Shown here piece by piece: positions 1-40,471 of a DNA stretch of 40,471 nt (positions within the stretch are counted from its first letter, which is position 1; each line of letters begins with the position of its first letter). A program made the position numbers and the translations under genes. Under the pieces are notes generated by a model. The model was not told the origin of the DNA. It worked only from the letters and a program-made list of their open reading frames with translations, and did not search any database. The DNA is from a virus, in the IMG/VR virus record IMGVR_UViG_3300010885_056921, positions 1 through 40,471 of that record, one strand, 5' to 3'.

Positions 1-207
1 GTACATTACAAGATTGAAAGTATAGTGATCTTTCTCTTCATTATATTTTACATTAAACTGCGGCTGCATGTCAAGAACGGGAACATAACCTTTGTCTCGC
101 ATTTGCTGGACTAAAAGTCTTTCGTAGTTTTCTCTTGAACTTTGAAAAATAGAATCATCTTTAATAACTCCATTCATCCAAAAATCATGTATTTTACGTG
201 GATACAT
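1..207 (-). CDS. Hypothetical protein, N-terminal part (runs off left edge)
   Basis: I read an open frame of 69 codons from an ATG at 207 to the window edge without a stop. It begins MYPRKIHDFW and is rich in charged and aromatic residues. No domain is recognisable. An AAGGA ribosome site lies about 13 bases upstream; an in-frame GTG six bases before the ATG is an alternative start. A TGA-TATAAT extended -10 box lies 22 bases upstream, inside an 18-base palindrome, so the gene probably has its own, possibly repressor-controlled, promoter separate from the helicase that precedes it. Function unknown; position next to the helicase suggests a DNA-metabolism role, which is only inference. Confidence 0.7.
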   Translation of the reverse strand, partial: MYPRKIHDFWMNGVIKDDSIFQSSRENYERLLVQQMRDKGYVPVLDMQPQFNVKYNEEKDHYTFNLVMY

Positions 208-221
208 TATCACCAATCTTC

Positions 222-239
222 CTTGATAATTATATCAAG
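222..239. promoter_or_regulatory. 18-base palindrome overlapping an extended -10 box
   Basis: The plus strand reads CTTGATA-atta-TATCAAG: perfect 7-base arms with a 4-base spacer. On the minus strand the same bases contain TGA-TATAAT (229-237), an extended -10 box for the gene starting at 207. A palindrome centred on a -10 box is the usual geometry of a repressor operator. It could also fold in RNA, but no T-run follows, so a terminator is less likely. No regulator gene is visible in the window. Confidence 0.5.
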
Positions 240-259
240 TTAATAATTGATTACATAAA

Positions 260-1486
260 TTATCCCGCAGGTATTTCATATACTTCTTTTACAATACCCC
301 TGTTAAGATCCCAGTCCAAATACATACCAAATTCTGTTCCATGACGATTTTTGCGACTTACAATTTCCATAATATTTGAATCAGGATTTTTATGAATAGC
401 AATAGCCATATCAGCATCATACTCAATTGCTTTAGACCAAGCAACTTGATTTAACATTGGAGGGGTATCATGGTCAGATGTTTCTTCTGCAGTTGCAGCA
501 GTAATATCAATAACAGGAATATTATTTCTCATTGCAAGCATTTTAAACTCACGAGAAATGTTCATATTTCTTTCAGTTGGTGCCTTAGAATTATTTGAAT
601 CTGCAAATAATTGATGATAATCAAGAATAACAAGATCTGGCTTATGTTGATCAATTTTTGCTTGGACTGTTGTTGGGGTTACTTGCCCTGCACCTTCATT
701 TGATACAAGAATAAAACCATTCTTATCTAAGAACTTTTTACGTCCCCAATCATCAAAGGCATTAAGATCAACACTACCCCTAGCAAAATCTGAAGATTTA
801 AATAGTCCCGACCCAAGCATTGTATAAATACGATCACGCATATTTTCTGGGGTCATTTCAAGAGATATGATCATAGGTTTAAACCCTTGTTCCCAAGCTT
901 TGCAGGCCAAATAAGACGAGAACCACGTCTTACCCTTACCTGGCCAACCAATCATCACTATAAGGTGCCCTGGAGCCATTCCAGTAGGGTATGCATAATC
1001 AATTGCTTTAAAGCCAGTCATAATTCCTGGACTACCACCCATTGCATCAGAACGATCTCGCACTGCTTCAAAATGCTTTTTTGCCATTTCAAAATCAGTT
1101 AAATCTATATCTCTAACATTTGCAGTAAGTTTATTAAGATTATTGAGTTCTATCTGCATTTGAGCAACAACTCTAGACGACGCTTCTGTTTTTAAGCTTG
1201 CACCTGAAGTTAACAAAAGGTTACGGAGGCGTGAAGCAAGATATTCATTCTTAAGTTGATCTAAGTAGTAAGCGGTTTCCCCTTTAACTTTAACTGGTTC
1301 AAAATCTTTAAATTTTTCTGTAAGGACAGAAATATCAGGAACAGATTTAAACTTTAAATAATAAGATTTTAAGCCTTCCCAAACATCTCTATGGGATGTA
1401 AACACTTCATCAATATTTTCCGCAAGGATTGTAGAAATATCTTTATTTTCACAAACTGCTGTTATGACGGCGGATTCAGTGTTCAT
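260..1486 (-). CDS. DnaB-type replicative helicase
   Basis: RecA-fold hexameric helicase that would unwind DNA at the phage replication fork. The protein is 408 residues. The Walker A motif GWPGKGKT lies near residues 180-187 and the Walker B stretch LVILDYHQL near 285-293, with a family-typical segment IISLEMTPENM between them and an arginine-rich RKNRHG near the C-terminus. The first 150 residues form a helical N-terminal domain, shorter than in bacterial DnaB but usual for phage members. I chose the ATG at 1486 because AAGGG stands just before it; an in-frame TTG at 1501 is possible. It overlaps the upstream small gene by about 11 bases, so translation is probably coupled. Substrate details are family knowledge, not seen here. 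Confidence 0.93.
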   Translation of the reverse strand: MNTESAVITAVCENKDISTILAENIDEVFTSHRDVWEGLKSYYLKFKSVPDISVLTEKFKDFEPVKVKGETAYYLDQLKNEYLASRLRNLLLTSGASLKTEASSRVVAQMQIELNNLNKLTANVRDIDLTDFEMAKKHFEAVRDRSDAMGGSPGIMTGFKAIDYAYPTGMAPGHLIVMIGWPGKGKTWFSSYLACKAWEQGFKPMIISLEMTPENMRDRIYTMLGSGLFKSSDFARGSVDLNAFDDWGRKKFLDKNGFILVSNEGAGQVTPTTVQAKIDQHKPDLVILDYHQLFADSNNSKAPTERNMNISREFKMLAMRNNIPVIDITAATAEETSDHDTPPMLNQVAWSKAIEYDADMAIAIHKNPDSNIMEIVSRKNRHGTEFGMYLDWDLNRGIVKEVYEIPAG

Positions 1487-1808
1487 TGTCCCTTTCTTCA
1501 ACCATAATTTTAGTCTTAGACCTAATCAATTCTCTACGAGTTTTGTCTTCTTTAGATTGTTGCAAAGTTATATCAATCTTTTCAAAATTATAAAAAAACC
1601 ATTGTATTGGATGTCCAGATTTTGTAATTTTAAAATAATACTCCAACAACTCTTTTGCACGATCATAACCAACACTATCAATTACATCTTGCATAGCCCA
1701 CTTTTCTCTGTACTTATTTACAATAGCAGGCTTTTTATAATTTTCTTTGTATAAAGTACAGTAAAGTGAAACTAAGCCATACGCAAGCTTTGCTTCATCC
1801 TTTGTCAT
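1476..1808 (-). CDS. Small protein upstream of helicase; possible helicase loader
   Basis: 110 residues, mostly helical by composition, with an aromatic-rich middle (YYFKITKSGHPIQWFFYNF near 57-75) and a charged C-terminus (SKEDKTRRELIRSKTK). No family is recognised with certainty. It overlaps the start of the DnaB-type helicase and the end of the next upstream gene, so the three are co-translated. In many phages a small helical protein directly before the helicase is a loader or replisome accessory protein; that assignment here rests on position only. Confidence 0.8.
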   Translation of the reverse strand: MTKDEAKLAYGLVSLYCTLYKENYKKPAIVNKYREKWAMQDVIDSVGYDRAKELLEYYFKITKSGHPIQWFFYNFEKIDITLQQSKEDKTRRELIRSKTKIMVEERDNEH

Positions 1809-2231: not shown

Positions 2232-2740
2232 TCGGGTGCTTTCCAAACTGGGACAAATTCCCCATCATTGTTTTTAACGTATAAAATGTTTTCTTGTTTC
2301 ATTATAGCTTCTATTTCTGCTCTTGATGGCATATCACCTGGTGTAACCCCGCCATCATTCCTAGGTCTACCCCTATGAACTGTTTTAAAAAAATTATGCA
2401 TTTCCCTAACGTCGTCTTCACTCCAAAAATATTTTCCTGGATGTTTATTGCCATTAAGTGAATATGCTTGTTGTGGGAACTTTAAACTACCACGATACAT
2501 ATGCATTTTAATAGTATCTTCATGCTTACCAATAATTTTTACAACTTCTGAGATGGGGTAAGCATATTGTTTATTTTTATTAACATCAGTTAAATTATAA
2601 GCAACACGCTTACCCAATTGATAATCCCAAGAAATTAATAAGTCTTCAGCTCTAGAGCGACGTAAAACTTTGTGAAGCTTTCCGTTTAAATAGAAATACC
2701 GTAACCGTGTTGCAGTATTTCCTCTTTTTTTGCGATCCAT
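2225..2740 (-). CDS. Putative DNA-binding protein with helix-turn-helix-like centre and AT-hook-like motif
   Basis: 171 residues. The centre (about 60-118) has the shape of a MerR/excisionase-type winged helix: a helix (ISEVVKIIGKHEDTIKMHM), a wing with glycines and aromatics, then WSEDDVREMHNFF. It is followed by RGRPR at 123-127, the core of an AT-hook minor-groove binder, which would suit this A+T-rich genome. The N-terminus is strongly basic. It could be a transcription regulator or a replication-origin protein. The motif assignments are by eye and moderate in strength. It overlaps the zinc-ribbon gene by 55 bases. Confidence 0.78.
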   Translation of the reverse strand: MDRKKRGNTATRLRYFYLNGKLHKVLRRSRAEDLLISWDYQLGKRVAYNLTDVNKNKQYAYPISEVVKIIGKHEDTIKMHMYRGSLKFPQQAYSLNGNKHPGKYFWSEDDVREMHNFFKTVHRGRPRNDGGVTPGDMPSRAEIEAIMKQENILYVKNNDGEFVPVWKAPEW

Positions 2741-3089: not shown

Positions 3090-3845
3090 TTATGCGGTAA
3101 ATATTTTACCGTCAACTACACAAGTGTAATCTCGTGTAATTTGTATTAGCTGAACGTGTGGATAATCATTGACAACATGTGCCACTGCAAATCCCGCCTG
3201 CCAATTTTTTTGGATTGAATAATCCATTTTGTTTTCATCGCATAGATGACCAATTTCATATCCACGCAGTTCTTGACCACTTAGATTGTATGTTTGAAAA
3301 TAAGCACCCATGCGGTGAGAGTGTCCACGCACTAAGGATATACCCCAGTTGTTGACATCGTTACGGACAGATTCTCCAGAGTGTTTAGATATGGATTCGC
3401 CATGGTGACCATACAAATCACCAAAACGCTTAACTGGAGGTTCATTATAATGATGCCAGTTAAAGCCATGCTTATTATATTCATAGAGTGAATCTGGTGT
3501 AACGAAATCTAGTAATGTTGGAGCTTTCTTTGCAATATAGTCTCCGTGTCTTGTCCATCCATGGTTACCGTCATGAAAATGACAATCAGCATTTGGTACA
3601 ATTTCCCTAATATCTGATAAGAATTGACGTGTTCCTAAAACCCCGCCATCCATAATAGAAATTCCTTCATCAGGATATCCGTCTGCCCAACGACTTGTAG
3701 AATCAGCATCATCAATATCTCCAAGAAGGTCTACTGAATCTGGTTTCCACCACTTCATAACTTTAAGGAATAATTCTACTTTGCGTTCATCGTGGAGTGG
3801 GAAGTGGACATCTGAGACCATCATCCATTTTAAATCATTAGTCAT
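3090..3845 (-). CDS. Calcineurin-type metallophosphoesterase
   Basis: 251 residues with the full metal-binding signature of the family: D12-x-H14, G42-D43, G93-N94-H95, a histidine pair at 147-148 and G174-H175-x-H177. These bind two metal ions that attack phosphoesters. Substrates in phages are varied (phosphoproteins, nucleotides, DNA or RNA ends) and cannot be read from the sequence. It has its own canonical promoter (TTGACA/TACAAT) overlapping the stop of the HNH gene and an AAAAAGGA ribosome site. Codon use looks more G+C-rich than in the tail genes, consistent with good expression. Confidence 0.92.
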   Translation of the reverse strand: MTNDLKWMMVSDVHFPLHDERKVELFLKVMKWWKPDSVDLLGDIDDADSTSRWADGYPDEGISIMDGGVLGTRQFLSDIREIVPNADCHFHDGNHGWTRHGDYIAKKAPTLLDFVTPDSLYEYNKHGFNWHHYNEPPVKRFGDLYGHHGESISKHSGESVRNDVNNWGISLVRGHSHRMGAYFQTYNLSGQELRGYEIGHLCDENKMDYSIQKNWQAGFAVAHVVNDYPHVQLIQITRDYTCVVDGKIFTA

Positions 3846-5179: not shown

Positions 5180-7549
5180 CTATTGAGCATTTGATAATCC
5201 TGAATCTCCTGAAGTTCCTGCTGAGTTTGTAGCATACGCTGCAACTTTCCACTGCACTGAAGTTTTTGGTAAAGTAAAAGTTCCAGAATTAGTACTAGAG
5301 AAAGGACCTTTTGTTGTTTGTATAGTTGAAAAATTATTGGACGATCCATAAGCGTGTAAATAATATGTTATTGGGGCTGTCCCAGTTGAAGCTGACCAAG
5401 ATGCAGAATAATTCCAAGAACTTGAATTTGCACCAATATAAGAAAGAGTAGGTGTTCCTGGTATACTTGGCGCAATTGATGATGGCGTATATGTCCAATA
5501 TGCATATAGAGATATATTTGAATTTGGATAATAAACATTTCCTCTTCCGCCAGCAAAGTTGCCCGAGCCAGATGAACCAGTGTACCATCCATTAAAAGTA
5601 TAATTAGATACAGAACTAGGTGATGGCAAAGTTACATAGCCTCCTTGCGTTGTTGTTACTGATCCAGATGAGCTATCTATTGAATCTACATAAGTAACAG
5701 TATAGCTTGGTGCAGCACCTGTAATAACTTGAGCTGGCCCTACCCAAGCACCGTATGTATTGTTGTTTCTTGAACGAATAAAATAATATATTTGCTTAGA
5801 ATAACCTTGATAAATAGTTTGTGATGTTCCAGTTATTCCTGAATACTGTGCTGAAACAGCTCCCGATGGAGTTGCAGAAATAGTTTGTGAATATATTTCA
5901 TAAGATGAAACATTGTTTGGAAAATTTTGCCCGCCGTAAGTATCTGATGGTGCGGCATTCCAAGATATTACTGCATTATCTGCAGAAGCATAACCTGAAG
6001 CATTTGTGGGAGAAACTGGAGTTCCTGCATAAAAAAATGGAGGACTTGAAGGTGCAGGACTTGAATTTGCTTGAGCAGATCCACTAGCATTTGTTCCTGT
6101 AGATATTCCATAATAATATCCATTTGTTGGGATATCGTAACGAACAGTACTAGAGGATGTACTAATAGTATCATAATAGCTATAGCTTCCCGAAACAGTT
6201 CCGCTTCTATAAATATCTAAACGCATACTTGTTGCACGTAAAGAAGAAGACTGTATGTACCCTTGTGTTGTAAAGTTTCCGACAGAAGAAGAAAATGTTG
6301 GTGTTGCTGGTACTACAGCAACTACTGGACCAACACTAGACGGACTTGCAATATTACTTAACCCACTTGAATTACCAGCATTAACATAAGCTGAAATTGT
6401 ATTGTTATATGAAGAATTATAAGTAAACGTATAATCTACATAATTTGTTGTATATGTACCTGCTTGATTTGATGTTATTGATGTTACAGGAAAAGTATTG
6501 TAATAAATTGTATAATTATAATATGTTGGACTATTTGACCATGTTCCAAAATTTAATCTTAAAGTAGTACCCGATGTTATTTGTCCAGAAAATACGTTAC
6601 CCAATGTATCTGTCCAATACGGATAATTTTGAACAACTGGTACCCCTGGGGAGACTTTTGCTGTTGCTGCATATTTTAAAATACCTTGAGTAGTCCCCGC
6701 ATAATCTGAACCACTGTTATACTGTGTTTCTACAGCATAAATATAATAGCCATTATCTGTTGAAGTTGATGTATATGTAGATGTTGTAGTCCAAGTTGTA
6801 CCGTTATTATTCCATAAAGGCGCTGAACCTGTAATAGGAGTTGCATATGTTTTTATACTTTCAGGGGTTGAATATAAAGTTGTGCTTTTATACCAACTAA
6901 CATTATATCTTGTACTATCTGGAAAATACGCCTCTGTTCCATTCCATGTTGCGGTATATGTTGCTGTTGAATTTACATTAAATGTTGTTGCTGCAGAACC
7001 CATGCTTGCAGAAATATTTAAGGGAGGATTTGTAATAACTATTACTCTTCCATATCCATTACCTACAGAATCAATGCTGGGTATACTTTGAGTATTATTA
7101 TCTGTTATTTGAAAATCTAAATACTTTCCCGCCCAATTTGAACTATACCCATTAAATGATGGTGTTGTTAAATTGATTAATATTCCACTACTGTATGTTC
7201 CTGATGAAATTATTGTGTTAGACCCACCCGTTGATGCTGAACATGATTGAACTTGATATGCATATGAAATTCCAGTAAAACCAGAATTGTTCCATGTCCC
7301 GTTTTGTCCATATAAAGAGCTTCCAATTCTTACATAATTATTAACATAAACATTGTTTCCTGCTAAATCCGTTGAAAAAAATGGAGAAAAAGTTGAAATT
7401 GGTCCAGCTTTTGGCCAAAATAATTGCCAAATATTTGCTGAAGTTTTAACAAATATTTTTTTAGCAATTTGCCAAGTACTTGAAGAAGTTTTAACAAAAA
7501 ATTGTTGAGCTGGAACCCAAGTGTTTGCTGTTTTTTTTATAAATAACAT
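5180..7549 (-). CDS. Tail/adhesin protein with Ig-like domains and an InlB-type repeat
   Basis: 789 residues, very rich in Ser, Thr, Tyr, Gly and Asn. The N-terminus has a threefold short repeat (IKKTANTWVPAQQFF, VKTSSSTWQIAKKIF, VKTSANIWQ), a pattern common at the start of phage tail-tip accessory proteins. The bulk is a series of beta-sandwich (Ig/FN3-like) domains separated by proline-rich linkers. Around residues 650-690 is a Listeria-Bacteroides/InlB B-repeat: YTFNGWYTG ... ISLYAYWT. Such proteins decorate the tail tip and may contact cell-surface polymers. It starts right after the stop of the 958-residue tail protein, with only a weak ribosome site, so translation is probably coupled. 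Confidence 0.82.
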   Translation of the reverse strand: MLFIKKTANTWVPAQQFFVKTSSSTWQIAKKIFVKTSANIWQLFWPKAGPISTFSPFFSTDLAGNNVYVNNYVRIGSSLYGQNGTWNNSGFTGISYAYQVQSCSASTGGSNTIISSGTYSSGILINLTTPSFNGYSSNWAGKYLDFQITDNNTQSIPSIDSVGNGYGRVIVITNPPLNISASMGSAATTFNVNSTATYTATWNGTEAYFPDSTRYNVSWYKSTTLYSTPESIKTYATPITGSAPLWNNNGTTWTTTSTYTSTSTDNGYYIYAVETQYNSGSDYAGTTQGILKYAATAKVSPGVPVVQNYPYWTDTLGNVFSGQITSGTTLRLNFGTWSNSPTYYNYTIYYNTFPVTSITSNQAGTYTTNYVDYTFTYNSSYNNTISAYVNAGNSSGLSNIASPSSVGPVVAVVPATPTFSSSVGNFTTQGYIQSSSLRATSMRLDIYRSGTVSGSYSYYDTISTSSSTVRYDIPTNGYYYGISTGTNASGSAQANSSPAPSSPPFFYAGTPVSPTNASGYASADNAVISWNAAPSDTYGGQNFPNNVSSYEIYSQTISATPSGAVSAQYSGITGTSQTIYQGYSKQIYYFIRSRNNNTYGAWVGPAQVITGAAPSYTVTYVDSIDSSSGSVTTTQGGYVTLPSPSSVSNYTFNGWYTGSSGSGNFAGGRGNVYYPNSNISLYAYWTYTPSSIAPSIPGTPTLSYIGANSSSWNYSASWSASTGTAPITYYLHAYGSSNNFSTIQTTKGPFSSTNSGTFTLPKTSVQWKVAAYATNSAGTSGDSGLSNAQ

Positions 7550-10426
7550 TTAATATGCAACCCACAAATCTCCTATGTAACCAGCTGATCCAGAAGGCGA
7601 ACCACTTGTTAAAGTTCCTGTGGTTGAATAATAAATTGCATATCCTACTACAATATCATTTGCAGTAACTCCTGCATTAGAATTACTAGCAGTTGCTCGC
7701 ACAGCTGATCTTATAAAATAAGTTGAACCATTAGATGTTGGAATTTGTCCATTATCACCCATAACATTTAATCCATTAATTGACAATCCTGTTGACCCAA
7801 ATTTAATGCTTTGTGTTGTATCTTGATAAACTTGGCTACCATTGGCAAAAAAATAATATGCATTTGTTGCCACCGTTGAAGATAATTGTAAATTACTTGT
7901 TGTCATTGTTATTCCGATGTTACTATTAGAATTTAATGTAATTTTTCCTGATTCAAATGTTGCCCACGCACCATACTGTTTAGATGGAGAATATGGCGCT
8001 GAAGTGTCTTTTGCTGTATAAATAAGCATTGACGGTGCTTGTGGGTTTGTAATTTTTGTTCCAGTTGCTGCAGTTCCCGCATCTAATAAAATTCCAATCG
8101 CTGGGGATGCTGACAATTGAATGCCTGTTGAAGTAGCCGTTATAAATGGACTGCTAGTTCCACCAGTAAAATAATTCCATGCACCTGTAAATAGACCTGC
8201 CCCCACTTTAGAAGAAGTTGACCAATAATCTGAAAATGAATTTCCTGCAGCAAAATATGGTCCTGTTGTTGGTCCATTTGTTGGAATAGTTGTGCCTGTT
8301 GAAAATGGAGAAGAAGCACTTGGAGCAGTAATATAAAGATTACTATTTCTTTGTAATATATAAGAAGTCCCGCCATTAGTCGTAGCTAAGGAAATATAAT
8401 CATTAGTTGCATCAAGAGTAATTGTGTTATTTGATGTACCAGCCGATTTAGCCGTTATAATACCAGTTATTTCTGCATTATTAGCGTATAGTTTTCCATC
8501 CATTCTAACTCTAAAATCATTTGATGTACTTGATGGAGTTGGAGTAGTTCCACTTTGACCCGCCCAAAATACTACATCAGTAGAAATTGATGGACTATTT
8601 ATGCCTGCATTATAATTTGGAGTATTTGCACTTGAGACATATATGTAACCATTGGAAGAATCAAGAACTATATTGCCCTTACCAGTAATTCCTGTTTTAG
8701 AAATAGTGCTTGAGTTTACTACCCAACCACCAATATTTGCAGAGGTAGTTGTTAAGCTAGATCCAGTTATAGTTGTAGTAGTTGTTCCAACTCCCCCGCT
8801 ATTAAATATAATTCCAGTGCTTTGAAGAATATATCCTTGGTTTGTTAAATTTCCAGAAGCATCTATTGTTCCAGAATATAATGAACCTCCAGATGCTATT
8901 GACACATTGCCGCTAAAAGATCCTTTTCTTGCAACAATATTTCCATCTATAGTAAAATCTCCACCATTCCAACTAATGTAATTACTTGTTGTTCCACCTA
9001 CTTTTATTGTTGCTGTAGTTCCACTAGTTAAATACCAATAATTTCCTGAGTTTAAATATAAACCTTGGTTTGTTGTTCCACCCACTCCCGCTCCAAATTG
9101 AAATCCATTTGTTGTGCTGATATAACTTGATATGGCAGCGGTGCCCGTTGTTGTAACAGAAGAAAAAGATGTATATGTTGAAACATTATTATAAAAATCA
9201 TATGATGCAATTGCAATTTGATACGTTGTTCCTAAAGAAAGTCCCGAAAGTTTATATGTTGTTCCTGTTCCTGGAGAATCAGCATAAGAATATACTGGTG
9301 ATGTTCCTGTATCAGAAGTAAATCTAATTCTGTATCCCGCCAATTTAGTGTTTGCAGATATTGTTCCTGCAGTCCAACTTAAATTAATGTATGCAGTAAA
9401 TCCTAAAACACCAGAAGGGTCTACTCCCGTTGTTGCTGTTGTTCCTGATGGAGCTCCTGGAGCAGTTACATTTGCTACAACTGGAGAAGTTGGTGTTACA
9501 TTTCTTGCAGTAGAAAACGCCGTATATATTTGACCATTTGAAGAAAATCTAGCGACTACCCATCTTTGACCATAATCTGTTGTGCTTATTATTGCTGGAT
9601 TAATTTTATTAAAATATACCCTAGTGTAATTAGTTGGAGTTATTCCATCTGTTGCATAAGTTATGGCTGGCGCAGAAGAAGCAGTAGATATAATTTCCCA
9701 AATATCAATACCAGAAAATGATGATGATGTCGGCGTAGTATAACTAACTGAATAACTAGAATTTCCTGATGCTAGAGTAATTGAAGGAGTAGGAAGATTT
9801 AATACGTATGTAGGTATAGATGCTGCTGCTACAAAATTACCTGTATTATTTAATGGATCTGCTACTTTTACTAAAATTGAAGTTAATGTTGGAGTAAATA
9901 TATTAAACATTTGTTCATTAATAGATGCAGTAACCGTTAATGTTTGACTTGAAGAAGAAGCATTTATTGAAAACCCGCCATATGTTTTTGTTATTCCATT
10001 AGAATTTGTTAAAGAAATAATAAATTGAGACATTGTTGCATTTTCACTTATTGTTGGATCCCAAGTAAATGAAACTATTAAATCATCTCCAGACCAAACT
10101 GCGGAGACATTTGATGGATCTGTTGGAACAATAACATAGGCACCACTTCCTCCAGGATAAACTGAGGGTGGTAAATTATTAATTGGGGGAATAATGATAT
10201 CTGCAGAAATACCGCTTGCATTTAAATTTCCGCTTCCAACTTTAAAATTTGCATAATTTGCAGTTACGTTTCCAGTATTAATCTCTGTAATTTCAGCACC
10301 CGTACGTGCTTGAGTGATTCCACGTTTTGATTTTTTAAGGCGTGGGTCAGCGGCATCAATAGGGACTGTTTGTCTTTTTCCTACTGATGTTGACGATCTA
10401 TACTTTGGTGGTTCTGCAGTTACCAC
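7550..10426 (-). CDS. Minor tail / central fibre protein with FN3-like domains
   Basis: 958 residues starting at a GTG (10426) with GGGGGT upstream. An FN3-like domain spans roughly 315-425 (AGYRIRF, TYQIAIASYDFYNN). Further on, GNIVARKGSFSGNVSI and LYSGTIDASGNL resemble the central 'IVARRGTFSGNV' region of tail-tip and fibre proteins of many siphoviruses. The C-terminal 400 residues are Thr/Ser/Gly-rich beta structure, probably a fibre or receptor-binding part. Location between tail-tip and adhesin genes fits. The two terminal parts may evolve separately. Confidence 0.82.
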   Translation of the reverse strand: MVTAEPPKYRSSTSVGKRQTVPIDAADPRLKKSKRGITQARTGAEITEINTGNVTANYANFKVGSGNLNASGISADIIIPPINNLPPSVYPGGSGAYVIVPTDPSNVSAVWSGDDLIVSFTWDPTISENATMSQFIISLTNSNGITKTYGGFSINASSSSQTLTVTASINEQMFNIFTPTLTSILVKVADPLNNTGNFVAAASIPTYVLNLPTPSITLASGNSSYSVSYTTPTSSSFSGIDIWEIISTASSAPAITYATDGITPTNYTRVYFNKINPAIISTTDYGQRWVVARFSSNGQIYTAFSTARNVTPTSPVVANVTAPGAPSGTTATTGVDPSGVLGFTAYINLSWTAGTISANTKLAGYRIRFTSDTGTSPVYSYADSPGTGTTYKLSGLSLGTTYQIAIASYDFYNNVSTYTSFSSVTTTGTAAISSYISTTNGFQFGAGVGGTTNQGLYLNSGNYWYLTSGTTATIKVGGTTSNYISWNGGDFTIDGNIVARKGSFSGNVSIASGGSLYSGTIDASGNLTNQGYILQSTGIIFNSGGVGTTTTTITGSSLTTTSANIGGWVVNSSTISKTGITGKGNIVLDSSNGYIYVSSANTPNYNAGINSPSISTDVVFWAGQSGTTPTPSSTSNDFRVRMDGKLYANNAEITGIITAKSAGTSNNTITLDATNDYISLATTNGGTSYILQRNSNLYITAPSASSPFSTGTTIPTNGPTTGPYFAAGNSFSDYWSTSSKVGAGLFTGAWNYFTGGTSSPFITATSTGIQLSASPAIGILLDAGTAATGTKITNPQAPSMLIYTAKDTSAPYSPSKQYGAWATFESGKITLNSNSNIGITMTTSNLQLSSTVATNAYYFFANGSQVYQDTTQSIKFGSTGLSINGLNVMGDNGQIPTSNGSTYFIRSAVRATASNSNAGVTANDIVVGYAIYYSTTGTLTSGSPSGSAGYIGDLWVAY

Positions 10427-10986: not shown

Positions 10987-13900
10987 TTAGTATCCTGCTC
11001 CTGTTTGTAATGAATTTAAGATCAGTGTAGTTTTTAATCCCTTTTGAAATACATGAGATACTTCATGGACTAAATATTTTTGTCCGCTAATGCCCGCTAA
11101 ACTATATGAAACGCTGATAATGTCTCCTACTTGTATTAAGGGGTTACCAAATACTTGTATTGAAGTGTCTTTTGAAAACCCGTCATTTCCAATTTTAATA
11201 ACATTAATAAGTGCTTCTGCAGATTTTTTAGATTGAATCCACGGACTATCAATTTGAATAACTTCAGATGAATTTGCAGGGTCAAGAATTTTTGAAATAA
11301 CCTGTGGATCTGATGGTGCAATAACTTCATGTGTCCAAAGATTTAACGTTACTGAAAATTGATTAATGGAGTCAGATTGTTTTGTTAAATAAACCATATG
11401 CCCGCAATTATTTGTAATTGCCATTCTAGCTCTAAAGCCCGTATTGATAGGTGTTGAATAAGATAGGGAATACTCATCAACTAATTGTTTTTGATAATAT
11501 TGTTGATCTATTGGCTGTTCACCTGGAAAATATTGCCACAAGTATTCAATTGGGAGAACATCAACACTTGTTGCTGCTGGTGTTTGATATTGAACATCAT
11601 AATAATTCATCCCAACTACATCTGGATTAGTTTGAACCATGTAGCTTTTATATTTAGAAAACAAATTTTGTTTCTGGACTAATCCATTTAAAAATTCTCT
11701 ATCTTGATAATAGTAATTAACGCTTCTTTCTACTAATGGTTTTTCAGTTCCATAAATTTCTCTAAACTGAGCAGATATAACTCCAGGGGATTGTGTTAGT
11801 GTTGAAGTAACTGTTTGTGGCAAAACTGGATCTATAGAAGTAAAAAATCCAAATTTGCTCCCAGTAAATAAAATTTTTGAGGTTGCACTTATAAAATTAA
11901 CATGTTGCCTTAAGCCAGTTACTGTATTAAGGGATGTGCTGCCCCATTTATATGTTGCTCCACCATACGTCCATGTTTTTACAACATCAGAATCAATTTT
12001 TGATGGATCTGTTACAACAATTGGTATTTGCCATCCTGTTATTTCTACGTTGTTTAAAAATACTTCTAAAATTTCTCCTTGTATTTCCCCGTCGGTTCCG
12101 TCTGAATATTTATGAACAACTCTTAAATTAAAATACTGGTCAGATGCTACGCCATAACTATAATTATTAGTATTTTTCCCAGAATCTACATAAAGAACTT
12201 TTTCAAAATTTTGTTGTATAAAGTTAACTGTGCCTGTAACATCTGTCCAGGAAATAACGCTCGGCTTTGCAGATGATGCGGAACTTGCTGCTTTATAAAA
12301 AACAATATAATATTTGTATTGTGTATCTACTTTCATCTGAACTAATTCAACAAAATAAGCATTATTGCCCGAAGATCCCGTTTGATTAAAAAATAAACCT
12401 GCTGAGTTAAGGTTTAAAGTATTGCTGTTAAGAGAGTTGGCGTTTAATGCATCAACATTAAAATCAAATTTAACTGAATATGTGCAAAAACCTGGATCAG
12501 TATAAGAAGATGGATAAATTAATGCTTTTCCTGAAGTAGGAGGAACAACAATAACTTTTGCAATTTTTGGATTATCTGGACTTGCAAAAGCAGCAGCATA
12601 AGCAGTTGTTGTAGAAGTTCCTGTTGTTAAAGCATAAGAATTATCTAGTGTTGCTTCTGAAAGATATTTATCTTTACCGTCATTAGTTCCTGGTTTAGAA
12701 GTAATTATTTTATGATCTGATGCCACAGTTCCAAACATTCCTCTTTGAACATTTGCAATTCTTCCAGTTGGCGTAATTTTTACATTGTTATCTGTACTTA
12801 AAGCACTTACAGCAGTGCCGCCAGAAACATAGGTACCAGTATAAGTGCTGGCAAGAGTAAATGAAGATCCTGTAGAAGAAACAACTTTTCCAATAATATT
12901 AAATTGTGATGGAGTAACGTTAATAATAGAAACTCTTTGACCAGGGCTAAAACCATTTGCTGCGGTGTAAGTAATGTTAGTTCCATCTCCTGATGCCCCA
13001 GTTATTGTTATTAAATTTGAAGCTAACCCTACACTATATTTTTTAATAAAAGCATTTATGTAAGATGTAAGTTCAATATCTGTTTTTGGATAAACAAGCT
13101 GATAAATTGAAGAATTTGTTAAACTAGTAATTTTATATTCTTTGTACAAAAATGAAACAACTTCATTTTCAATAATGCCATATCCATCATTATTTAAAAG
13201 ATATGTATGAAAAATATCTAATAGGCTATTGTTGTTCATGCTAAAAACGTTTTCATTTGCAAGCATATCTTTAGACAAATAATTATAACCAACCGAATCA
13301 GCATTTTTTTGACTCCATACAACATCATTTGATGTTGTATAAACAAATGAAGGTGAATTTTGGATGTCAACATCTGTAGCATTTTGTAATGCTAAAGATT
13401 GAAGAATTTTTGGTTCTTGATAGCTAATGGTAATAGCTCCTGGTTTTGTTTTATTAGTTATTGAATAGCCGCCCTGCACAATAGATGAATCAACAAAATC
13501 CATTGTTGAAATTTTATTTTTCATAATATCTGAAAGACTTAAAAATTTCATTATGCTAAATTCATCAATATATGCTCCAATTTGATGAGATAAAAATAAT
13601 TCAGATAAAACATCATATACAGTGCTGGCCTGTGAATTAGAGAAATAATAGTAAACATCAACTGGAGTTAAAGCATCATTACATACATGATAAAGTGAAT
13701 CGTAATCGTAATCAGTATATCCCGCCAAATCTAATATGGTTGAAATAATATCAAATAAACTTTTTTTACTTGCTACATAATCAGGCACCGCAATTGTTTG
13801 TAAATAATTTACAATATCGTAACATTCAACTTTAACTGTTTGGATATCTGTTTCAGCCCAAGCATTTGACCAATAAACTCCAGCTGGCACATATTGTCCA

Positions 13901-21541: not shown

Positions 21542-21570
21542 CAAGACCCCGCCATTTCTGGCGGGGCTTG
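21542..21570 (-). terminator. Hairpin after the major tail protein gene
   Basis: CCCCGCC (21547-21553) pairs with GGCGGGG (21560-21566) around a six-base loop, extended by CAAG/CTTG with one bulged base. Downstream on the minus strand is ATTTGTTTAT, a moderate U-rich tail. It lies 30 bases past the stop of the major tail gene, and would limit read-through or protect the 3' end of this abundant mRNA. Confidence 0.72.
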
Positions 21571-25665: not shown

Positions 25666-25688
25666 GGACGGGATTTTTAATCCCGCCC
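25666..25688 (-). terminator. Hairpin after the major capsid gene
   Basis: On the minus strand GGGCGGGATT pairs with AATCCCGTCC around an AAA loop. One of the ten pairs is G-U on the minus-strand RNA but A-C on the plus strand, which supports a minus-strand transcript. The U-rich tail is poor (TTAGTCATTT), so it may also act as a 3' stabiliser. Confidence 0.7.
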
Positions 25689-29567: not shown

Positions 29568-31148
29568 TTAATTGCCTTCTTGAGGACCTTCACCTTTAGC
29601 ATTACGTGCAGTACCCATTTTATCTGGTGCATTTAATGTTCTATTTTGATCACGCTTTTTATTTCCACTTGCATCAGAGGCTGCATCTTGTTGTTGTTTT
29701 GGATTAAGAACAAGAACCGCATCTCCACCTTCAAGAGGAGCCATTCCACGACGTGAACGAACTTCATTTGGAGTAATAACTTGATCTTTAAGATAACGAT
29801 CATCAATTCGTGATTGAGTTTCTTCATCTGTAAGTGCAAGTTCATTAAATCTTAAAACAAATGCGTCTGTAAATTCTCTAATAATCAAGTTAATTTTAAA
29901 CTCAAGTTCTTCTTGACGTGGACGGCATACTTGCTCTTTAAATGTTTTATCTGCATCTTTAGCATTTGCCAAGGATACATTTGCAGGCATTCCAAGTTTT
30001 GATACTGGAACACGGTGTGAAAGAAGAATACGATCTCTATTTTCTACTGCATAATTTCTAAAAGAAGAGTCTTGAATTCCCGCTTCAATTGGCTCCATAT
30101 TAAACTCAACACGCCCTTGATCTCCATCTGATGGAAGGGGGATGTAAAGAGTTCTATGGTTTCTACCTTTTAATCCTGTTTGAAAAAATTCAAGTAATTT
30201 ACGTTCTGAATCAGCAGTAAGTTTTGCGCCTTTAACTGTGATAATGTAACGTGGAACAGCTTTATTTTCAAAGTAGTCTAAGTTAAAGCGTTGAGCGAAT
30301 TCATCACCAGCAACTGCATTTTTAGCAGACAATACATCGGGAACTCCGTAATATGTATTTGATGGGGTAAATACTTTAAAGTGAATAACTTCATTTGGTT
30401 GTGGATCAGTTCCAATTTGATCTGGAGTTTCTGTATCTCCAAAATTTCTAAAAAATGTATAGCGGTTATAGACAACTTGAACAAATCCATCACGGTGACG
30501 ACGGATACGCATTGTTGTAGTTGGAATATGACCAACATAACCAATCTTGCCCGTTGAAGTACGACCAATTTCCATATATGCATTTCCAGTAGATTCTAAG
30601 TCAATAAATATTTTTTTCATTGTTTCTGAAAATGAATCGTCTGAATTTAATGATTCTAAAAATTGACGTAAATTTTCTTTCATGCTTTCAATTTTTGAAC
30701 GCAATTTATCTAACTTTTTAGGGGTACTCATAACTTCTTCAATTTTTAAAGTAGTAGCCCATGTATTTTCAAATTTATATCCAAGTCCAGTAACATTTGC
30801 AGCTTTAGCATTTACTGCTGAATGATGATATGGAGAAACATCATAAAGTTGTGCTAAATAAAGAATGTTGTATGGAGGCTGAACAATTTGAAAAAGAGAA
30901 TATCCTGTAAGATCAAGTGGATCAAGTTTTTTAGATTTTGCATCATCTACGCCAGTAAATGATTTTTGAATTCTATTCACTTGACGGCGAAAATTAGGGC
31001 TTAATCCTTCAGATTTCTTAATGTCATCCCATGTTGCATTAAATGGATCAACAAAATCATTTTCTACTGTATGGATAGGGTTATCCATTTTAACGGTAAT
31101 CCCGCCCTCATCTTCATCAATGGAATCATCTATTTTTAAATTAGCCAA
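29568..31148 (-). CDS. Portal protein
   Basis: 526 residues, beginning at a TTG inside the last codons of the upstream gene, with GAGGGAG nine bases before it. Typical PBSX/HK97-type portal segments are visible: LTGYSLFQIVQPPYNILYLA, YHHSAVNAKAANVTGLGY, DLESTGNAYMEIGR, HFKVFTPSNTYYGVPDVLSA, and a polar C-terminal tail (residues 480-526) that is probably disordered. The dodecameric portal forms the DNA gate at one capsid vertex. No terminase is next to it; instead fibre genes precede it, which is an uncommon order. Confidence 0.92.
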   Translation of the reverse strand: MANLKIDDSIDEDEGGITVKMDNPIHTVENDFVDPFNATWDDIKKSEGLSPNFRRQVNRIQKSFTGVDDAKSKKLDPLDLTGYSLFQIVQPPYNILYLAQLYDVSPYHHSAVNAKAANVTGLGYKFENTWATTLKIEEVMSTPKKLDKLRSKIESMKENLRQFLESLNSDDSFSETMKKIFIDLESTGNAYMEIGRTSTGKIGYVGHIPTTTMRIRRHRDGFVQVVYNRYTFFRNFGDTETPDQIGTDPQPNEVIHFKVFTPSNTYYGVPDVLSAKNAVAGDEFAQRFNLDYFENKAVPRYIITVKGAKLTADSERKLLEFFQTGLKGRNHRTLYIPLPSDGDQGRVEFNMEPIEAGIQDSSFRNYAVENRDRILLSHRVPVSKLGMPANVSLANAKDADKTFKEQVCRPRQEELEFKINLIIREFTDAFVLRFNELALTDEETQSRIDDRYLKDQVITPNEVRSRRGMAPLEGGDAVLVLNPKQQQDAASDASGNKKRDQNRTLNAPDKMGTARNAKGEGPQEGN

Positions 31149-35300: not shown

Positions 35301-36835
35301 ATTCCTTGAACACCCTGTGTGCCCTGTGCGCCCTGAACACCCTGTAATCCTTGTGCTTGTTGATAACCAAATCCTTGCAAGCCTTGTAAACCTTGTAATC
35401 CTTGAATGCCTTGTACACCTTGTGTGCCTTGGGCTCCTGATGTTCCAGAAAGATTTACTTGCCATCCCGCATATGATCCAGTTGAACCAGTATAACTAGT
35501 TTGAGTAAAAGTTAAACTACCAGTAGTTGTATAAGAAGTATATCCAGTTACTGTTCCATATTGAATACTTGTACCATGAGTTAAAATAATTGATTGACCT
35601 GTAGTATATGCTAATCCAGCAGATACGCTTATTGTTTGAGTTCCGCTTGAAGCTACTGTAAATGTATCACCTGTTGATGTTAAATATATGCTTCCACTAT
35701 ATCCTTGTAATCCTTGAATTCCCGCCGAACCTGTTGTTCCTTGTACGCTACCAGCTATTCCTTGAACGCCCTGTATACCTTGTGCTTGATTAAATCCTCC
35801 GCCTTGCAAACCTTGTAAGCCTTGTAATCCTTGAGTTCCTTGAACACCCTGTGTACCTTGTGCTCCCTGAATACCTTGTGCGCCATTTATTCCAACAGTT
35901 CCATTAGTTCCCGAAGAACCTTGAATACCTTGAATACCTTGCAAACCTTGTGCTTGATTAAATCCTCCGCCTTGCAAACCTTGTAAGCCTTGTAATCCTT
36001 GAGTTCCTTGAATACCTTGTGCGCCATTTGCTCCTGGAGATCCTGCAGCACCTGCAAGATTTACATACCAAGGATTTGGAACAGATCCATAAGTTCCAGA
36101 TCCAATAAAACTATTTTTAACAAATATTAAATTATTTGTTGAAGCAATTCCATTATATGAAACAACTGTTCCAGATTGTACATTGCTGACATCATATGCA
36201 ATTGTAATTGTTTGTCCTGGAGTATATGCTAGTCCAGTTCCAACAGTTATTGTTTGTTGTTGTTGATTTGATGATAATGTAAATGAAGTAGGGGAAGTTG
36301 TTGCATATAAATCTCCACTTGCGCCAGCAGATCCTGAAGTTCCCGTCGCACCTTGTAAACCTTGAAAACCTTGAATGCCCTGAGTTCCTGATCCTTGAAT
36401 TCCCTGTACACCCTGTATGCCTTGAACACCTGATCCCTGAATTCCTTGCAAACCTTGTGTACCTTGTGCACCTTGCGTTCCTGATCCTTGTGAGCCTTGT
36501 GTACCTTGCAAACCTTGTACGCCTTGAATACCTTGAATTCCTTGTGCACCCTGTGTTCCTGTTCCTTGAACACCTTGTGTGCCTTGCAAACCTTGTAATC
36601 CTTGAGTACCTTGTAGCCCTTGAATTCCCTGTACACCTTGTGTACCTTGCAATAAAGTTGCAGGAGCCCACGAGCGGACACCTGATGTAGTAGAAGTTAA
36701 TACTTGATTTGCGGTTGATGGTACGCCTAAATCTGGCTCTGTTTCAGATAAACCAATATAGTTATATCTGTCTGCATTTTGTGCAGCTTGTAAAGAAGGG
36801 GTTTTTTTTACTTTACCTGATAAATTTTTAGCCAT
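32306..36835 (-). CDS. Giant tail fibre: collagen-like tracts, YadA-like repeats, S74 chaperone
   Basis: 1509 residues. An N-terminal virion-attachment part is followed by Gly-x-Gln collagen-like tracts at about 63-165, 268-377, 465-557 and 635-682, separated by small beta domains. Residues 709-1384 are forty tandem copies of a 17-residue unit (consensus [17 protein letters not shown]; four copies have 16), resembling YadA head left-handed rolls. The end is a peptidase S74 intramolecular chaperone with the Ser-Lys dyad S1407/K1412 (SDKRDKTNI) and a final coiled coil ([17 protein letters not shown]). The protein should trimerise, then cut off the chaperone near S1407. Likely a receptor-binding fibre. 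Confidence 0.9.
32684..34711 (-). repeat. Forty 51-base tandem coding repeats
   Basis: Each unit encodes 17 residues starting Asn-(Thr)-Ala-Ile-Gly. Units 3, 7, 16 and 28 lack one codon; units 7, 16 and 28 share the rare ending NKVD, giving a higher-order period of 9-12 units. DNA identity between units is high, so unequal recombination can change copy number. Antisense frames through this block are artefacts of the repeat. Confidence 0.92.
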
Positions 36836-37205: not shown

Positions 37206-37210
37206 TTTCT

Positions 37211-38677
37211 TTACCCCTCAAGCGCCAGTATATATGGTGTCATTATAGCAAATAGACTTTTATTAAAGGCTGTACCACTAATTGTACCCGAAGCTTGATT
37301 AATTACTAAATTGGGACCAATTTTGAAGTTTCCTTTTTGGTCTGTGCTGGTAAAGAATATTTGCCCTCCGCCACTTGTTACGGTTTCTGCATTTCCCGTA
37401 ATAAATTGTCCGCCTAATTGTGGCAAAGATGTTGCTGGATCTATTCCATATCCGCAATATTCAAAGGTATGCCCTGAAGCAACAATTCTACTATTTTGAT
37501 AAAATTTTGCGGTAGTACCAGATGAAATTGTTGTTGTTATATTTGATGTTAAGTTAATTGTTGCTCGGCCACCAGATAGCTGACTTGCAATACTATCTAT
37601 AGTGTAGTATGTTGTTCCATTATCAAATGTTACAACATTGTTTGCATATGGAGTTTGGCTTAAACCACTAATTACAACCGTTGAATCATTTATATTAATT
37701 GTATTTGCTGCTGTTCCTGAATATAATAAAGAACTTACTCCTGCTGCTTTTAAACCAATATTTCCAAAAGATGAATCTGATCCAATAAGGGAACAAAATC
37801 CTCCAGATTCGCAAAGAACTCCTACATCTGTAAAAATTGTATAAATAGAAACTAATTGTGCGTATCCTTGATTAACAATATGAATACCAGTTCCACCATA
37901 ATTAATTTGAGTATACTGACCAGCAACCATTGATTTATTTCCAGTTACTTTACTACCATCAATATACATTCCTTTGCCGCCAGTTGAAATTGATGAACAA
38001 TTATATACATAAGGGCTTCTTGTAATAGCCCCCGCAGAACCATTTGGATTATAAGATACTGCAGAAGCACCTGATGTATGACCTTTAAATGTAACTTCAG
38101 AAATGTATACACCATTGTTAAGATAAAAAATGTCAGAAGTTGTAGTTGATGGTCTAATAGTTACTGATCTTAAGCTATCACCAATAACTGAAACACCTGT
38201 AGGAATTGTAACTGGATTTACTTCTGTATACTCCCCGCTTTTTACAAAAACAGTTGTGCCATCAGTTGCAATTGCAAGTGCTGCTTTAATTGTTAAAAAT
38301 GCTGATCCAATTGTTGTTCCATCATTTCCATCATTTCCAGTTTTAGCAACATATAAAACTTTTGTTGTAGCATTTGCTACACCCGAAGATCCCTGAATTC
38401 CTTGCACACCTTGTATGCCTTGAACACTATATCCTTGTATACCTTGAACACCTTGAACACTATATCCTTGTATACCTTGAAAACCTTGTACACCTTGAAC
38501 GCCTTGTATACCTTGTAAACCTTTTGGTCCTTTATTTAACGATAGATATGCATCAAGTTCTGATGCCAAACGAAAAATATCTCTAGGAACGTCTGGGGAG
38601 TCCGTGTAGGCGGGATAATTAAACTGTGCTCCAGAAACGGTTTGAAGATTACTAGTATAACTGTATGTAGGACTCAT
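37211..38677 (-). CDS. Tail fibre / depolymerase-like protein with collagen-like tract and beta helix
   Basis: 488 residues from ATG 38677; a TTG six codons earlier would lie in the promoter. Residues about 47-97 are Gly-x-x repeats ([16 protein letters not shown]). From about 105 on is a right-handed parallel beta helix of the pectate-lyase type: LYVAKTGNDGNDGTTIGSAF, VFVKSGEYTEVNPVTIP, GVYISEVTFKGHTSG, GKGMYIDGSKVTGNKS. Such helices bind or cut polysaccharides; no catalytic residues could be assigned. The same collagen-like motif occurs in the giant fibre, suggesting shared origin. Its mRNA is probably almost leaderless. Confidence 0.85.
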   Translation of the reverse strand: MSPTYSYTSNLQTVSGAQFNYPAYTDSPDVPRDIFRLASELDAYLSLNKGPKGLQGIQGVQGVQGFQGIQGYSVQGVQGIQGYSVQGIQGVQGIQGSSGVANATTKVLYVAKTGNDGNDGTTIGSAFLTIKAALAIATDGTTVFVKSGEYTEVNPVTIPTGVSVIGDSLRSVTIRPSTTTSDIFYLNNGVYISEVTFKGHTSGASAVSYNPNGSAGAITRSPYVYNCSSISTGGKGMYIDGSKVTGNKSMVAGQYTQINYGGTGIHIVNQGYAQLVSIYTIFTDVGVLCESGGFCSLIGSDSSFGNIGLKAAGVSSLLYSGTAANTININDSTVVISGLSQTPYANNVVTFDNGTTYYTIDSIASQLSGGRATINLTSNITTTISSGTTAKFYQNSRIVASGHTFEYCGYGIDPATSLPQLGGQFITGNAETVTSGGGQIFFTSTDQKGNFKIGPNLVINQASGTISGTAFNKSLFAIMTPYILALEG

Positions 38678-38685
38678 ATGGTATA

Positions 38686-38694
38686 AGTATACCA
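38686..38694 (-). promoter_or_regulatory. Extended -10 promoter before the beta-helix fibre
   Basis: Minus strand TGG followed by TATACT (38686-38691). The ATG lies eight bases after the box, leaving at most a base or two of leader. No ribosome site is present. No suitable -35 box. Confidence 0.6.
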
Positions 38695-38724
38695 AAATAT
38701 TAAATAAAAGCGTTTATTCAATAT

Positions 38725-39279
38725 TTAAAGTTTTTTTAAATTTTCATTTATAGCTGTTTTATACTGTTCTGGTATGTCTTGTTTAAGAAGTTTTTCAAAA
38801 ATATCTTTTGATTCATCCCGCCGACCCAGCCACCAAGCTGACACACCTTTTTCAAACTCAAGGCAATATTCTCCATAGTATTCAACATCAACAGGAAGAG
38901 GTTCAATTCTGGATGTATGCATCAATCCTAATTCTGCAAACAAATAACATTGTTGCCATTTTTGAGATTTTTCATAATACCTGGAAAGTACAAAGTATGC
39001 TTCTGGTCTTTTTGGCAAATATTGAATGGCTTGAAATAAAGCATTTTTTAATGTATGTTCCCGATTGCTTTGATCGTCCATACAATATGACATTCTAATT
39101 AATGAAGCATAAACTAAATTTGGATGCGTATCATATCCATATTCTGCAGTTCTTAAATAAAATGACATTGCGGCTGCAGTTTGACCAATTAATTCATACT
39201 CTCTTGCAATTTTAAAATTATGTTCTGGATTAAGCATATCTGAAGATGCTAATTCAATTAACTCTTCAATTGTTGCCAT
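38725..39279 (-). CDS. TPR-like helical protein
   Basis: 184 residues, all helical by composition, with repeated helix pairs: HNFKIAREYELIGQTAAAMS, RPEAYFVLSRYYEKSQKWQQ and KGVSAWWLGRRDESKDIFEK. Spacing and residues (Trp/Tyr, Ala, Gly) fit tetratricopeptide repeats. In phages and bacteria such repeats often occur behind or next to glycosyltransferase domains, and here it lies between a glycosidase-like gene and fibres, so a role in fibre glycan modification or assembly is possible. AGGAGG precedes the ATG; the start overlaps the upstream stop by 14 bases. Confidence 0.8.
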   Translation of the reverse strand: MATIEELIELASSDMLNPEHNFKIAREYELIGQTAAAMSFYLRTAEYGYDTHPNLVYASLIRMSYCMDDQSNREHTLKNALFQAIQYLPKRPEAYFVLSRYYEKSQKWQQCYLFAELGLMHTSRIEPLPVDVEYYGEYCLEFEKGVSAWWLGRRDESKDIFEKLLKQDIPEQYKTAINENLKKL

Positions 39280-40276
39280 ATGATATTGCCTCCTGTATCA
39301 TTTCTTCTATTAATGTATTTGTAATTTTAAGTACAAAAGCTGCATTATCGCTAAACCCAAATGTTAATAATAAATTATCATCTAGTACCGCCGCACCAGA
39401 ACAAAATTCAACACATGCATCTAAAAATGAAAACTTTTCTGGTGATAAACCAATTAAATTATAATTTTCATCAAAAACACAAAGTCTATGTCGGTATAAT
39501 CCATTTTTTTGATTAAGGTAGTTATTCCATAATCCAACTTCATGGGTTACAGAAAGATAATAATTATTCCAACGAACTAACTGAGTCCCGCCTCTTTGAT
39601 CTGCTGGAACATCAAATGTATTTGTTAGTGACACCTGCTCACATCGGGCGGGAAGTTCTGGATAAGTTCTTACAATTTCTGTAGGTGCAGTCCATTTAAC
39701 AAAATGATATGGTTTGTCTAATATTGGGTACCAATTTTTTTCACAATATGATTCATCAGTTCCTGGGGCTGGAATTCTTAAACGAGATATTTCTTTGGCT
39801 GTCCATTTATCTTTATTTATTTCAATTTCAGATAATTCCATACGACCTTGACCGTTTTCAGTAGTATCTCTACGAACTCCTGCTAAATAATATTTGCCTT
39901 CCCATTTAACTAAACGTCCATCTTCTAATCCAACAAATTCCCAAAGGGGCGGGACGTCAAGAGCACTAGTATCAATTAAACAATAATCAGTCATATTTAA
40001 ATTTTTATCTAATCTACATAAATAATTATATGTTCTAAGATTCATATCTTTTTCTGGATGCAAATATGCTAAAGGTCCCCAAGGTGAAGGAAATTTCATA
40101 TTTTTTTCAGCATGATAAAGCGAATAATTAATATGTCTAAGATTGACAAGTATGTCGCCATCATCATCTATAAAAATGGCGGGATTTGTTAAGCCAGTTC
40201 CTTTAACTAATCCCTCTTTAATAACAATAGGGACTAATTTACCCCCAGCATTTATTGCTCTTTGAACTAAATTCAT
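39266..40276 (-). CDS. Five-bladed beta-propeller glycosidase-like protein (GH130/GH43-type)
   Basis: 336 residues. GLTNPAIFIDDDGDILVNLR near 28-47, then GLEDGRLVKWEGKYYLAGVR near 116-135, and later RGGTQLVRWNNYYLSVTH and FCSGAAVLDDNLLLTFGF, are blade signatures of GH43/62/130 propellers. In GH130 the related E-D-P-R holds the catalytic Asp; here it is E118-D119-G-R, so activity may be altered or the protein may be a non-catalytic binder. It could process mannose-type glycans on the host surface or on phage fibres. The ATG is the seventh base after TATAAT, with no ribosome site. Confidence 0.83.
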   Translation of the reverse strand: MNLVQRAINAGGKLVPIVIKEGLVKGTGLTNPAIFIDDDGDILVNLRHINYSLYHAEKNMKFPSPWGPLAYLHPEKDMNLRTYNYLCRLDKNLNMTDYCLIDTSALDVPPLWEFVGLEDGRLVKWEGKYYLAGVRRDTTENGQGRMELSEIEINKDKWTAKEISRLRIPAPGTDESYCEKNWYPILDKPYHFVKWTAPTEIVRTYPELPARCEQVSLTNTFDVPADQRGGTQLVRWNNYYLSVTHEVGLWNNYLNQKNGLYRHRLCVFDENYNLIGLSPEKFSFLDACVEFCSGAAVLDDNLLLTFGFSDNAAFVLKITNTLIEEMIQEAISYGNN

Positions 40277-40282
40277 ATACTG

Positions 40283-40288
40283 ATTATA
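40283..40288 (-). promoter_or_regulatory. -10 box giving a leaderless glycosidase-like mRNA
   Basis: Minus strand TATAAT (40283-40288), six bases, ATG (40276), identical spacing to the pre-portal promoter at 31.49 kb. It lies just after the stop of the upstream gene. It lacks the TGn element. Confidence 0.6.
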
Positions 40289-40290
40289 TA

Positions 40291-40471
40291 CTACTGAATA
40301 GGTTCTTGTAAAGTAAGTTGAGATGCTTGATTAATTAAAGCATTAATTTCTTCTTGAGTTAATCCCGCATCAATTAATTTTTGTGTACCAGAATTTACTG
40401 GATCTATAGGTGCGGGAGGTGTAAAAGTATTTGTTTCTTTATCATATGTCCATCCAATTCCCGCTGGATTA
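40291..40471 (-). CDS. C-terminal end of an unidentified (probably virion) protein
   Basis: 59 codons open from the right window edge to TAG at 40291. It reads PAGIGWTYDKETNTFTPPAP near the start of the fragment, then LIDAGLTQEEINALINQASQ and ends LQEPIQ. The 'GWTYD...F.PP' segment is a motif seen near the C-terminus of many short phage tail accessory proteins, so it is likely a tail or fibre accessory gene. The N-terminal part is outside the window. Confidence 0.75.
   Translation of the reverse strand, partial: NPAGIGWTYDKETNTFTPPAPIDPVNSGTQKLIDAGLTQEEINALINQASQLTLQEPIQ

Follow-up and report, generated by a model that had tools for sequence, protein, structure and literature searches.

The window and its relatives

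The window analysed here is a linear fragment of 40,471 nucleotides from a lake virus (IMG/VR record IMGVR_UViG_3300010885_056921) with a GC content of 34.9%, and the subject of this work is a short word, GGCGGG followed by A or G (GGCGGG[A/G]), that recurs along it. The genes of the window, which were called mechanically, include those for a DnaB-like helicase, a portal, a head protease, a capsid protein, a tape measure, tail fibres and an endolysin. Comparison of portal, helicase and protease identified Streptomyces phages of the Stanwilliamsviridae (SEA-PHAGES cluster BE) as the nearest isolates, the head protease showing approximately 40% identity to the protease of that family. Homologues of the portal, the helicase and the capsid protease are all present, as would be looked for in a member of the Stanwilliamsviridae or of a sister group, and these similarities place the actinophage from which the window derives close to that family. 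An immunoglobulin (Ig)-domain tail protein, WhiB and a RecA/Cas4/resolvase module are likewise common to the family and to the window or its relatives. The window clade differs in coming from freshwater metagenomes, in a GC content of 33-42% and in the lack of any CCGG, and the family call is one of similarity only.

A total of 440 stretches related to the window were found in IMG/VR. Ten long relatives (G001:C31 and G002-G010) together with the window make up the eleven-genome set used below; the contigs are fragments and genomes inside one clade share ancestry. The gene for WhiB, an actinobacterial marker, is carried by four of the ten long relatives and is absent from the window, itself a fragment. 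One of the relatives (L082 / G001:C31, CAINGU010000031.1) is a 110 kb actinophage contig inside a GenBank metagenome-assembled genome (MAG) labelled as an uncultured cyanobacterium. A cyanobacterial host was considered on this basis and rejected. The phage contig is judged to be a misbin because the MAG's own contigs contain the cyanobacterial word HIP1 (GCGATCGC) and ordinary numbers of CCGG sites and the phage contig contains neither; it also carries WhiB.

A heptamer enriched in DNA

A reading of the window from its letters alone (the sequence-only reading) had drawn attention to the pentamer GCGGG, with an estimate of 47 copies on the minus strand and 8 on the plus strand. Direct counting gave 47 and 9, with 17 and 10 minus-strand copies of the sister words GCGGA and GCGGT (15 and 9 in the earlier estimate). 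GGCGGG accounts for 24 of the 47 minus-strand copies, A follows in 26 of the 47, and five of the nine plus-strand copies lie beyond 38.6 kb. The expectation for the minus strand is 7.4 from composition and 9.4-9.5 under a second-order Markov model; a maximal-order Markov test on pentamers masks the signal because the word itself raises GCGG and CGGG. Synonymous shuffling within the 31 minus-strand genes, the check that had been set beforehand, did not reproduce the count, since 41 copies were observed against 8.0 expected (z 12.5), or against 13.4 (z 8.2) under a stricter shuffle that also keeps the dinucleotides at codon junctions. Under both shuffles GCGGG ranked first of 1024 pentamers, and all codon phases are raised as had been proposed (26/13/2 against 5.9/1.8/0.3 expected). 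A codon or amino-acid cause was rejected on these two synonymous nulls and on the presence of sites in non-coding DNA.

The claim of a G-rich over-represented word therefore stood, but the exact word is not GCGGG; it is the heptamer GGCGGG[A/G]. In the window this was found 18 times on the minus strand and five times on the plus strand against expectations of 0.97 and 0.24 (Table 1). The top heptamer of the window is GGCGGGA, at 16/1.0 (pairs of this kind give observed and expected counts throughout) and a fold of 7.9, the runner-up reaching 1.9. As a positive control the same procedure recovered HIP1 in the cyanobacterial MAG (GCGATCG 125/8.4), and in phiC31, R4, Zemlya and Dorin it gave a maximum of 4.6 for any word. 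Glycine-rich collagen-like tail genes were considered as the source of the word and rejected, as the signal persists after their removal and GGCGGGA is then the strongest heptamer over the eleven genomes. Most single-base changes of GGCGGGA bring the enrichment in these genomes down to 0-2.4-fold, the tolerated changes being at position 7 (G 7.0-fold, T 3.4-fold) and position 2 (A 4.3-fold, T 2.9-fold), and the flanking bases hold little information.

GGCGGG[A/G] is enriched to a similar extent whatever its context. On the main strand it was found at 208/16.3 in main-strand genes, 22/1.4 in opposite-strand genes and 50/2.6 outside open reading frames (ORFs), and on the other strand at 53/3.2, 16/1.1 and 18/1.2 respectively; GCGGG likewise shows a similar fold by gene direction and outside ORFs. 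This similarity in genes of either direction and in non-coding DNA excludes an RNA or codon cause, and GGCGGG[A/G] acts as a DNA word. A signal at the level of RNA, or a series of terminators, was rejected on the equal fold in opposite-strand genes and on the presence of only one hairpin among the heptamer sites. This intergenic, terminator-like hairpin (21547-21566) has GGCGGGG in both arms, with a predicted -24.1 kcal/mol and a z of -6.0.

The near-constant fold across contexts also means that most of the strand polarity comes from strand composition. The polarity described in the sequence-only reading is present in the window, where the ratio for GCGGG (47:9 against 9.4:4.8 expected) goes somewhat beyond composition, but it does not survive as a defining property of the word. 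Pooled counts stand at 692:256, where 190:81 would be expected, and the polarity of GCGGG is mostly base composition. A packaging or segregation-polarity word, which had also been suggested, is not indicated: the spacing of heptamer sites is near random, adjacent sites agree in orientation no more often than by chance and there are no orientation runs.

The word is kept in related genomes, as had been anticipated. GCGGG exceeds its second-order expectation on both strands in all ten long relatives and is within the top seven pentamers in 11 of 11 genomes, ranking first in five; its rank is 853rd in Karimac and 523rd in the cyanobacterial MAG. At homologous sites at which the amino acids are unchanged (60-95% protein identity) GGCGGG was kept in 39% of cases, compared with 25% for AGCGGG, 26% for TGCGGG, 16% for GGCGGA and 19% for GGCGGT, and on the other strand CCCGCC was kept at 39% against 12-18% for its neighbours; the pairs of sites are not independent and this difference in retention is descriptive. 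The word is thus conserved by count, with turnover of individual sites.

Table 1. Positions of GGCGGG[A/G] in the window and of two genes used to place it
Feature	Position	Strand	Remark
GGCGGGG in ORF 2225-2740	2347..2353	-	
GGCGGGA in metallophosphoesterase gene 3090-3845	3192..3198	-	
GGCGGGG in metallophosphoesterase gene 3090-3845	3641..3647	-	
GGCGGGA in ORF 5180-7549	7127..7133	-	
GGCGGGA in ORF 7550-10426	8368..8374	-	
GGCGGGA in ORF 7550-10426	9335..9341	-	
GGCGGGA in minor tail protein gene 10987-15570	13720..13726	-	
GGCGGGA in minor tail protein gene 10987-15570	15445..15451	-	
GGCGGGA in tape-measure gene 16111-20853	18946..18952	-	
GGCGGGA in tape-measure gene 16111-20853	19768..19774	-	
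GGCGGGG, 3' arm of intergenic terminator-like hairpin	21547..21553	-	
GGCGGGG, other arm of hairpin 21547-21566	21560..21566	+	Same palindrome, not an independent site
GGCGGGG in ORF 23070-23789	23276..23282	-	
GGCGGGA between ORFs 25220-25639 and 25711-26853	25681..25687	-	
GGCGGGA in head maturation protease gene 26887-28317	27945..27951	-	
GGCGGGA in portal gene 29568-31148	31100..31106	-	
GGCGGGA in tail-fibre-like gene 32306-36835	35720..35726	-	
GGCGGGA, template strand of tail-fibre gene 37211-38695	38609..38615	+	
GGCGGGA in glycosyltransferase-like gene 38725-39279	38816..38822	-	
GGCGGGA in ORF 39266-40276	39586..39592	-	
GGCGGGA, template strand of ORF 39266-40276	39647..39653	+	
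GGCGGGA, template strand of ORF 39266-40276	39948..39954	+	
GGCGGGA, template strand of ORF 39266-40276	40178..40184	+	
DnaB-like helicase gene	260..1501	-	62-63% identity to Streptomyces Stanwilliamsviridae helicases; puts window in family
Portal gene	29568..31148	-	Query that retrieved relatives; ~52-54% identity to Stanwilliamsviridae portals

Spelling of the word among related phages

In the Loccivirinae the word takes the form G[GC]CGGGT (GGCGGGT 61/6.2 in one group), in phages of the Karimac/Elmer type it is CCCGG[TC]G, preferably after a G (48/4.9), and in those of the LilMartin/Daubenski type it is G[GC]CCGGT (58/6.7). The lineage words are all joined by single substitutions within G-S-C-S-G-G-W, and a series can be followed from GGCGGGA to GGCGGGT, GGCCGGT and GCCCGGTG. 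With regard to the hexamers described by GSCSGG, the window clade enriches GGCGGG alone (6.5-fold), the other three containing CCGG; G021, in which CCGG is present, enriches both GGCGGG and GCCGGG; and the Boydwoodruffvirinae enrich C-rich versions, with one group avoiding GGCGGG (2/10). For these four hexamers the values were 0.4-1.2 in three unrelated Streptomyces phages and in the MAG. In a sister freshwater lineage (the L166-L193 group) AGGGCGT (33/5.9), GGACGGG (24/3.9) and AGCGTCC (34/8.0) were noted besides GGCGGGA.

CCGG is wholly absent from the eleven genomes (0 in 770 kb, 475 expected), and its absence extends to most sister freshwater lineages. ATCGAT, CTCGAG and TCGCGA are also missing from the eleven genomes, and TCGA (108/1093), CGCG (63/289) and TGCGCA (4/106) are scarce. 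These gaps look like strong restriction-site avoidance. A second, clade-restricted avoided word is GCGGC, which is strongly depleted in several of G003 and G005-G010 (2/28.5 in G003, 0/15.6 in G005). In the window it is only slightly under-represented (8/15), and its numbers in G001, G002 and G004 are close to normal. The absence of CCGG probably explains the choice of GGCGGG over GCCGGG or GGCCGG in this clade, and displacement from avoided restriction sites such as this could push related words up, so that the heptamer would be a neutral by-product of such displacement or of context-dependent mutation or repair. This is very unlikely, given that GCGGA and GCGGT are equally free of CCGG and occur at expectation, that G021 does not avoid CCGG (197 sites) and still enriches GGCGGG and GCCGGG, and that the one-step neighbours of the word are mildly enriched and not depleted as directed mutation requires.

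Phages isolated on the same strain can carry mutually exclusive words. On S. griseus ATCC 10137, Annadreamy has GGCGGGT at 21/1.9 and CCCGGTG at 0/1.5, compared with 0/2.1 and 15/2.2 in Karimac. On S. lividans the same two words are found at 21/2.9 and 1/1.3 in Faust and at 1/2.5 and 14/1.4 in Elmer, and on S. viridochromogenes GGCGGGT and GCCCGGC are found at 17/6.2 and 0/2.6 in BillNye and at 0/1.4 and 13/1.1 in LilMartin. None of the lineage words is enriched in the unrelated Streptomyces phages phiC31, R4 (S. coelicolor) and Zemlya (S. lividans). In these comparisons the word follows phage ancestry and not isolation host, which need not be the natural host.

Words of this kind are known as Chi sites, as operators or stoperators and as priming sites. 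The Chi sites include GCTGGTGG with RecBCD in E. coli and AGCGG with AddAB in B. subtilis, the latter named in the sequence-only reading. Like them the heptamer is short, G-rich and non-palindromic, is over-represented beyond composition and codon use in coding (all phases) and non-coding DNA, and is kept by number in relatives, so that the likeness to Chi stood; the identity with a host Chi site did not, as phages of the same host do not share one word. A host Chi would be the site of the host's AdnAB, RecBCD or AddAB, and the phage would carry it so as to survive that enzyme or to exploit it. The resemblance to the AddAB Chi of B. subtilis (PMC4824097), the known enrichment of host Chi in some phages (PMC3784561) and an orientation preference beyond composition in the Streptomyces relatives (e.g. 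41/2.9 against 7/2.0 in Karimac-type phages) would fit such a site. However, the exclusive words of two subfamilies on each of the three strains argue against a host Chi and for a reader inherited by the phage, Zemlya and R4 lack the words, Streptomyces lack RecBC (PMC1193525) and AdnAB is without a known Chi (PMC4824097), and we consider this explanation unlikely.

Drift of a consensus with lineage is also a hallmark of the stoperators of cluster A mycobacteriophages, which follow a one-orientation rule (PMC6550527). The heptamer might similarly be a binding site of a phage repressor, silencer or nucleoid protein with which its spelling co-evolves, and helix-turn-helix or Lsr2-like DNA-binding proteins are present in several relatives. 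Stoperators are asymmetric repeated words like the one described here, but they are approximately 13 bp in length, for the most part share one orientation with respect to transcription, and are bound by an immunity repressor, whereas the present word is of 7 bp, lies mostly within genes on both strands at approximately equal fold irrespective of gene direction, and is spaced at random. Neither a repressor nor an integrase was recognised among the genes of the window or those scanned in G003. Such a role is unlikely.

A putative phage-encoded reader

The best explanation would be that GGCGGG[A/G] is a Chi-like DNA recognition word read by a protein of the phage itself, a view that we hold tentatively and at somewhat less than even confidence. 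A phage-encoded reader is the likeliest because the spelling drifts along the phage phylogeny and not with the isolation host, and a Chi-like system is suggested by the specificity profile, by the Chi-like appearance of the word and by the recombination genes of relatives, a RecA-like recombinase, a Cas4-like exonuclease and a Holliday resolvase being present in G003 and in the Streptomyces relatives. Under this proposal selection would act on the number of copies and not on their positions, keeping the word at approximately 0.2-0.7 copies per kb, and the putative reader would be encoded and inherited by the phage. During recombination-dependent replication or repair the word would be met by the end-processing and strand-exchange proteins of the phage (Cas4/RecB-like nuclease, RecA-like recombinase, resolvases), where it may convert degradation or resection to strand exchange and label the DNA as self. 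That selection is behind the word, that the phage encodes its reader and that recombination is its role are all inferred from the genomes compared. It is possible, though doubtful, that this tailed-phage family has a private Chi system of its own. A reader encoded by the phage would then evolve alongside a matching heptamer spread over the genome, and the word would serve, without dependence on the host, in recombination and in the recognition of replicating phage DNA as self.

Several findings weigh against a Chi-like word read by the phage. Classical Chi works in one orientation and, unlike it, GGCGGGA in the pooled window clade shows no orientation preference beyond composition (144/13.9 on the coding strand and 43/3.5 on the other, approximately 11-fold overall in the eleven genomes), although the Streptomyces relatives do show one. 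Enrichment is weak in some relatives, with only 12 GGCGGG[A/G] sites in G005 and little or no enrichment in G024 and the Rhodococcus phage Dorin. To our knowledge the reader of every Chi site so far described is a host helicase-nuclease and never a phage protein. The word further differs from Chi sites in that its spelling tracks phage lineage, its likely hosts have no known Chi and its reader is putative. HIP1 is comparable as a short genome-wide word of similar fold, but it is a palindrome found in cellular genomes.

The replication genes of relatives, in which a DnaG-type primase adjoins the helicase, raise the alternative of an initiation or replication word such as a priming site for this phage primase (zinc ribbon and Toprim), the specificity of whose zinc ribbon could drift. 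Primase sites are of approximately three bases with loose flanks, compared with the seven bases seen here, and the pentamers of the T7 primase show hardly any enrichment when set against the same null (GGGTC 32/28.3, TGGTC 72/54.8), so that a priming site is a very unlikely explanation.

Chi-like words are usually regarded as belonging to the host and borrowed by its phages. The phages described here include relatives that were isolated on the same bacterium and have mutually exclusive words, and these words differ by single-base steps from branch to branch of the phage tree, so that the origin and evolution of a signal and its reader become testable in culturable Streptomyces phages. Proof of a phage or a host reader would answer an open question with regard to the streptomycete AdnAB, for which no Chi is known. 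For freshwater actinophages, to which hosts are not easily assigned, the word may also serve as a mark of lineage. In the literature searched, which did not extend to subscription journals, no account of a word of this kind in the phage family was found.

Two further observations concern gene content. Genes in the early region of G003 (L109, 8467-14294) specify an HSP20 chaperone and a ferritin-like protein, and there is a weak match to a proteasome subunit. On the plus strand of the window an open frame of 348 codons (33224-34270) lies antisense within the gene for a 1509-residue tail protein and is probably a by-product of the repetitive codon use of that gene.

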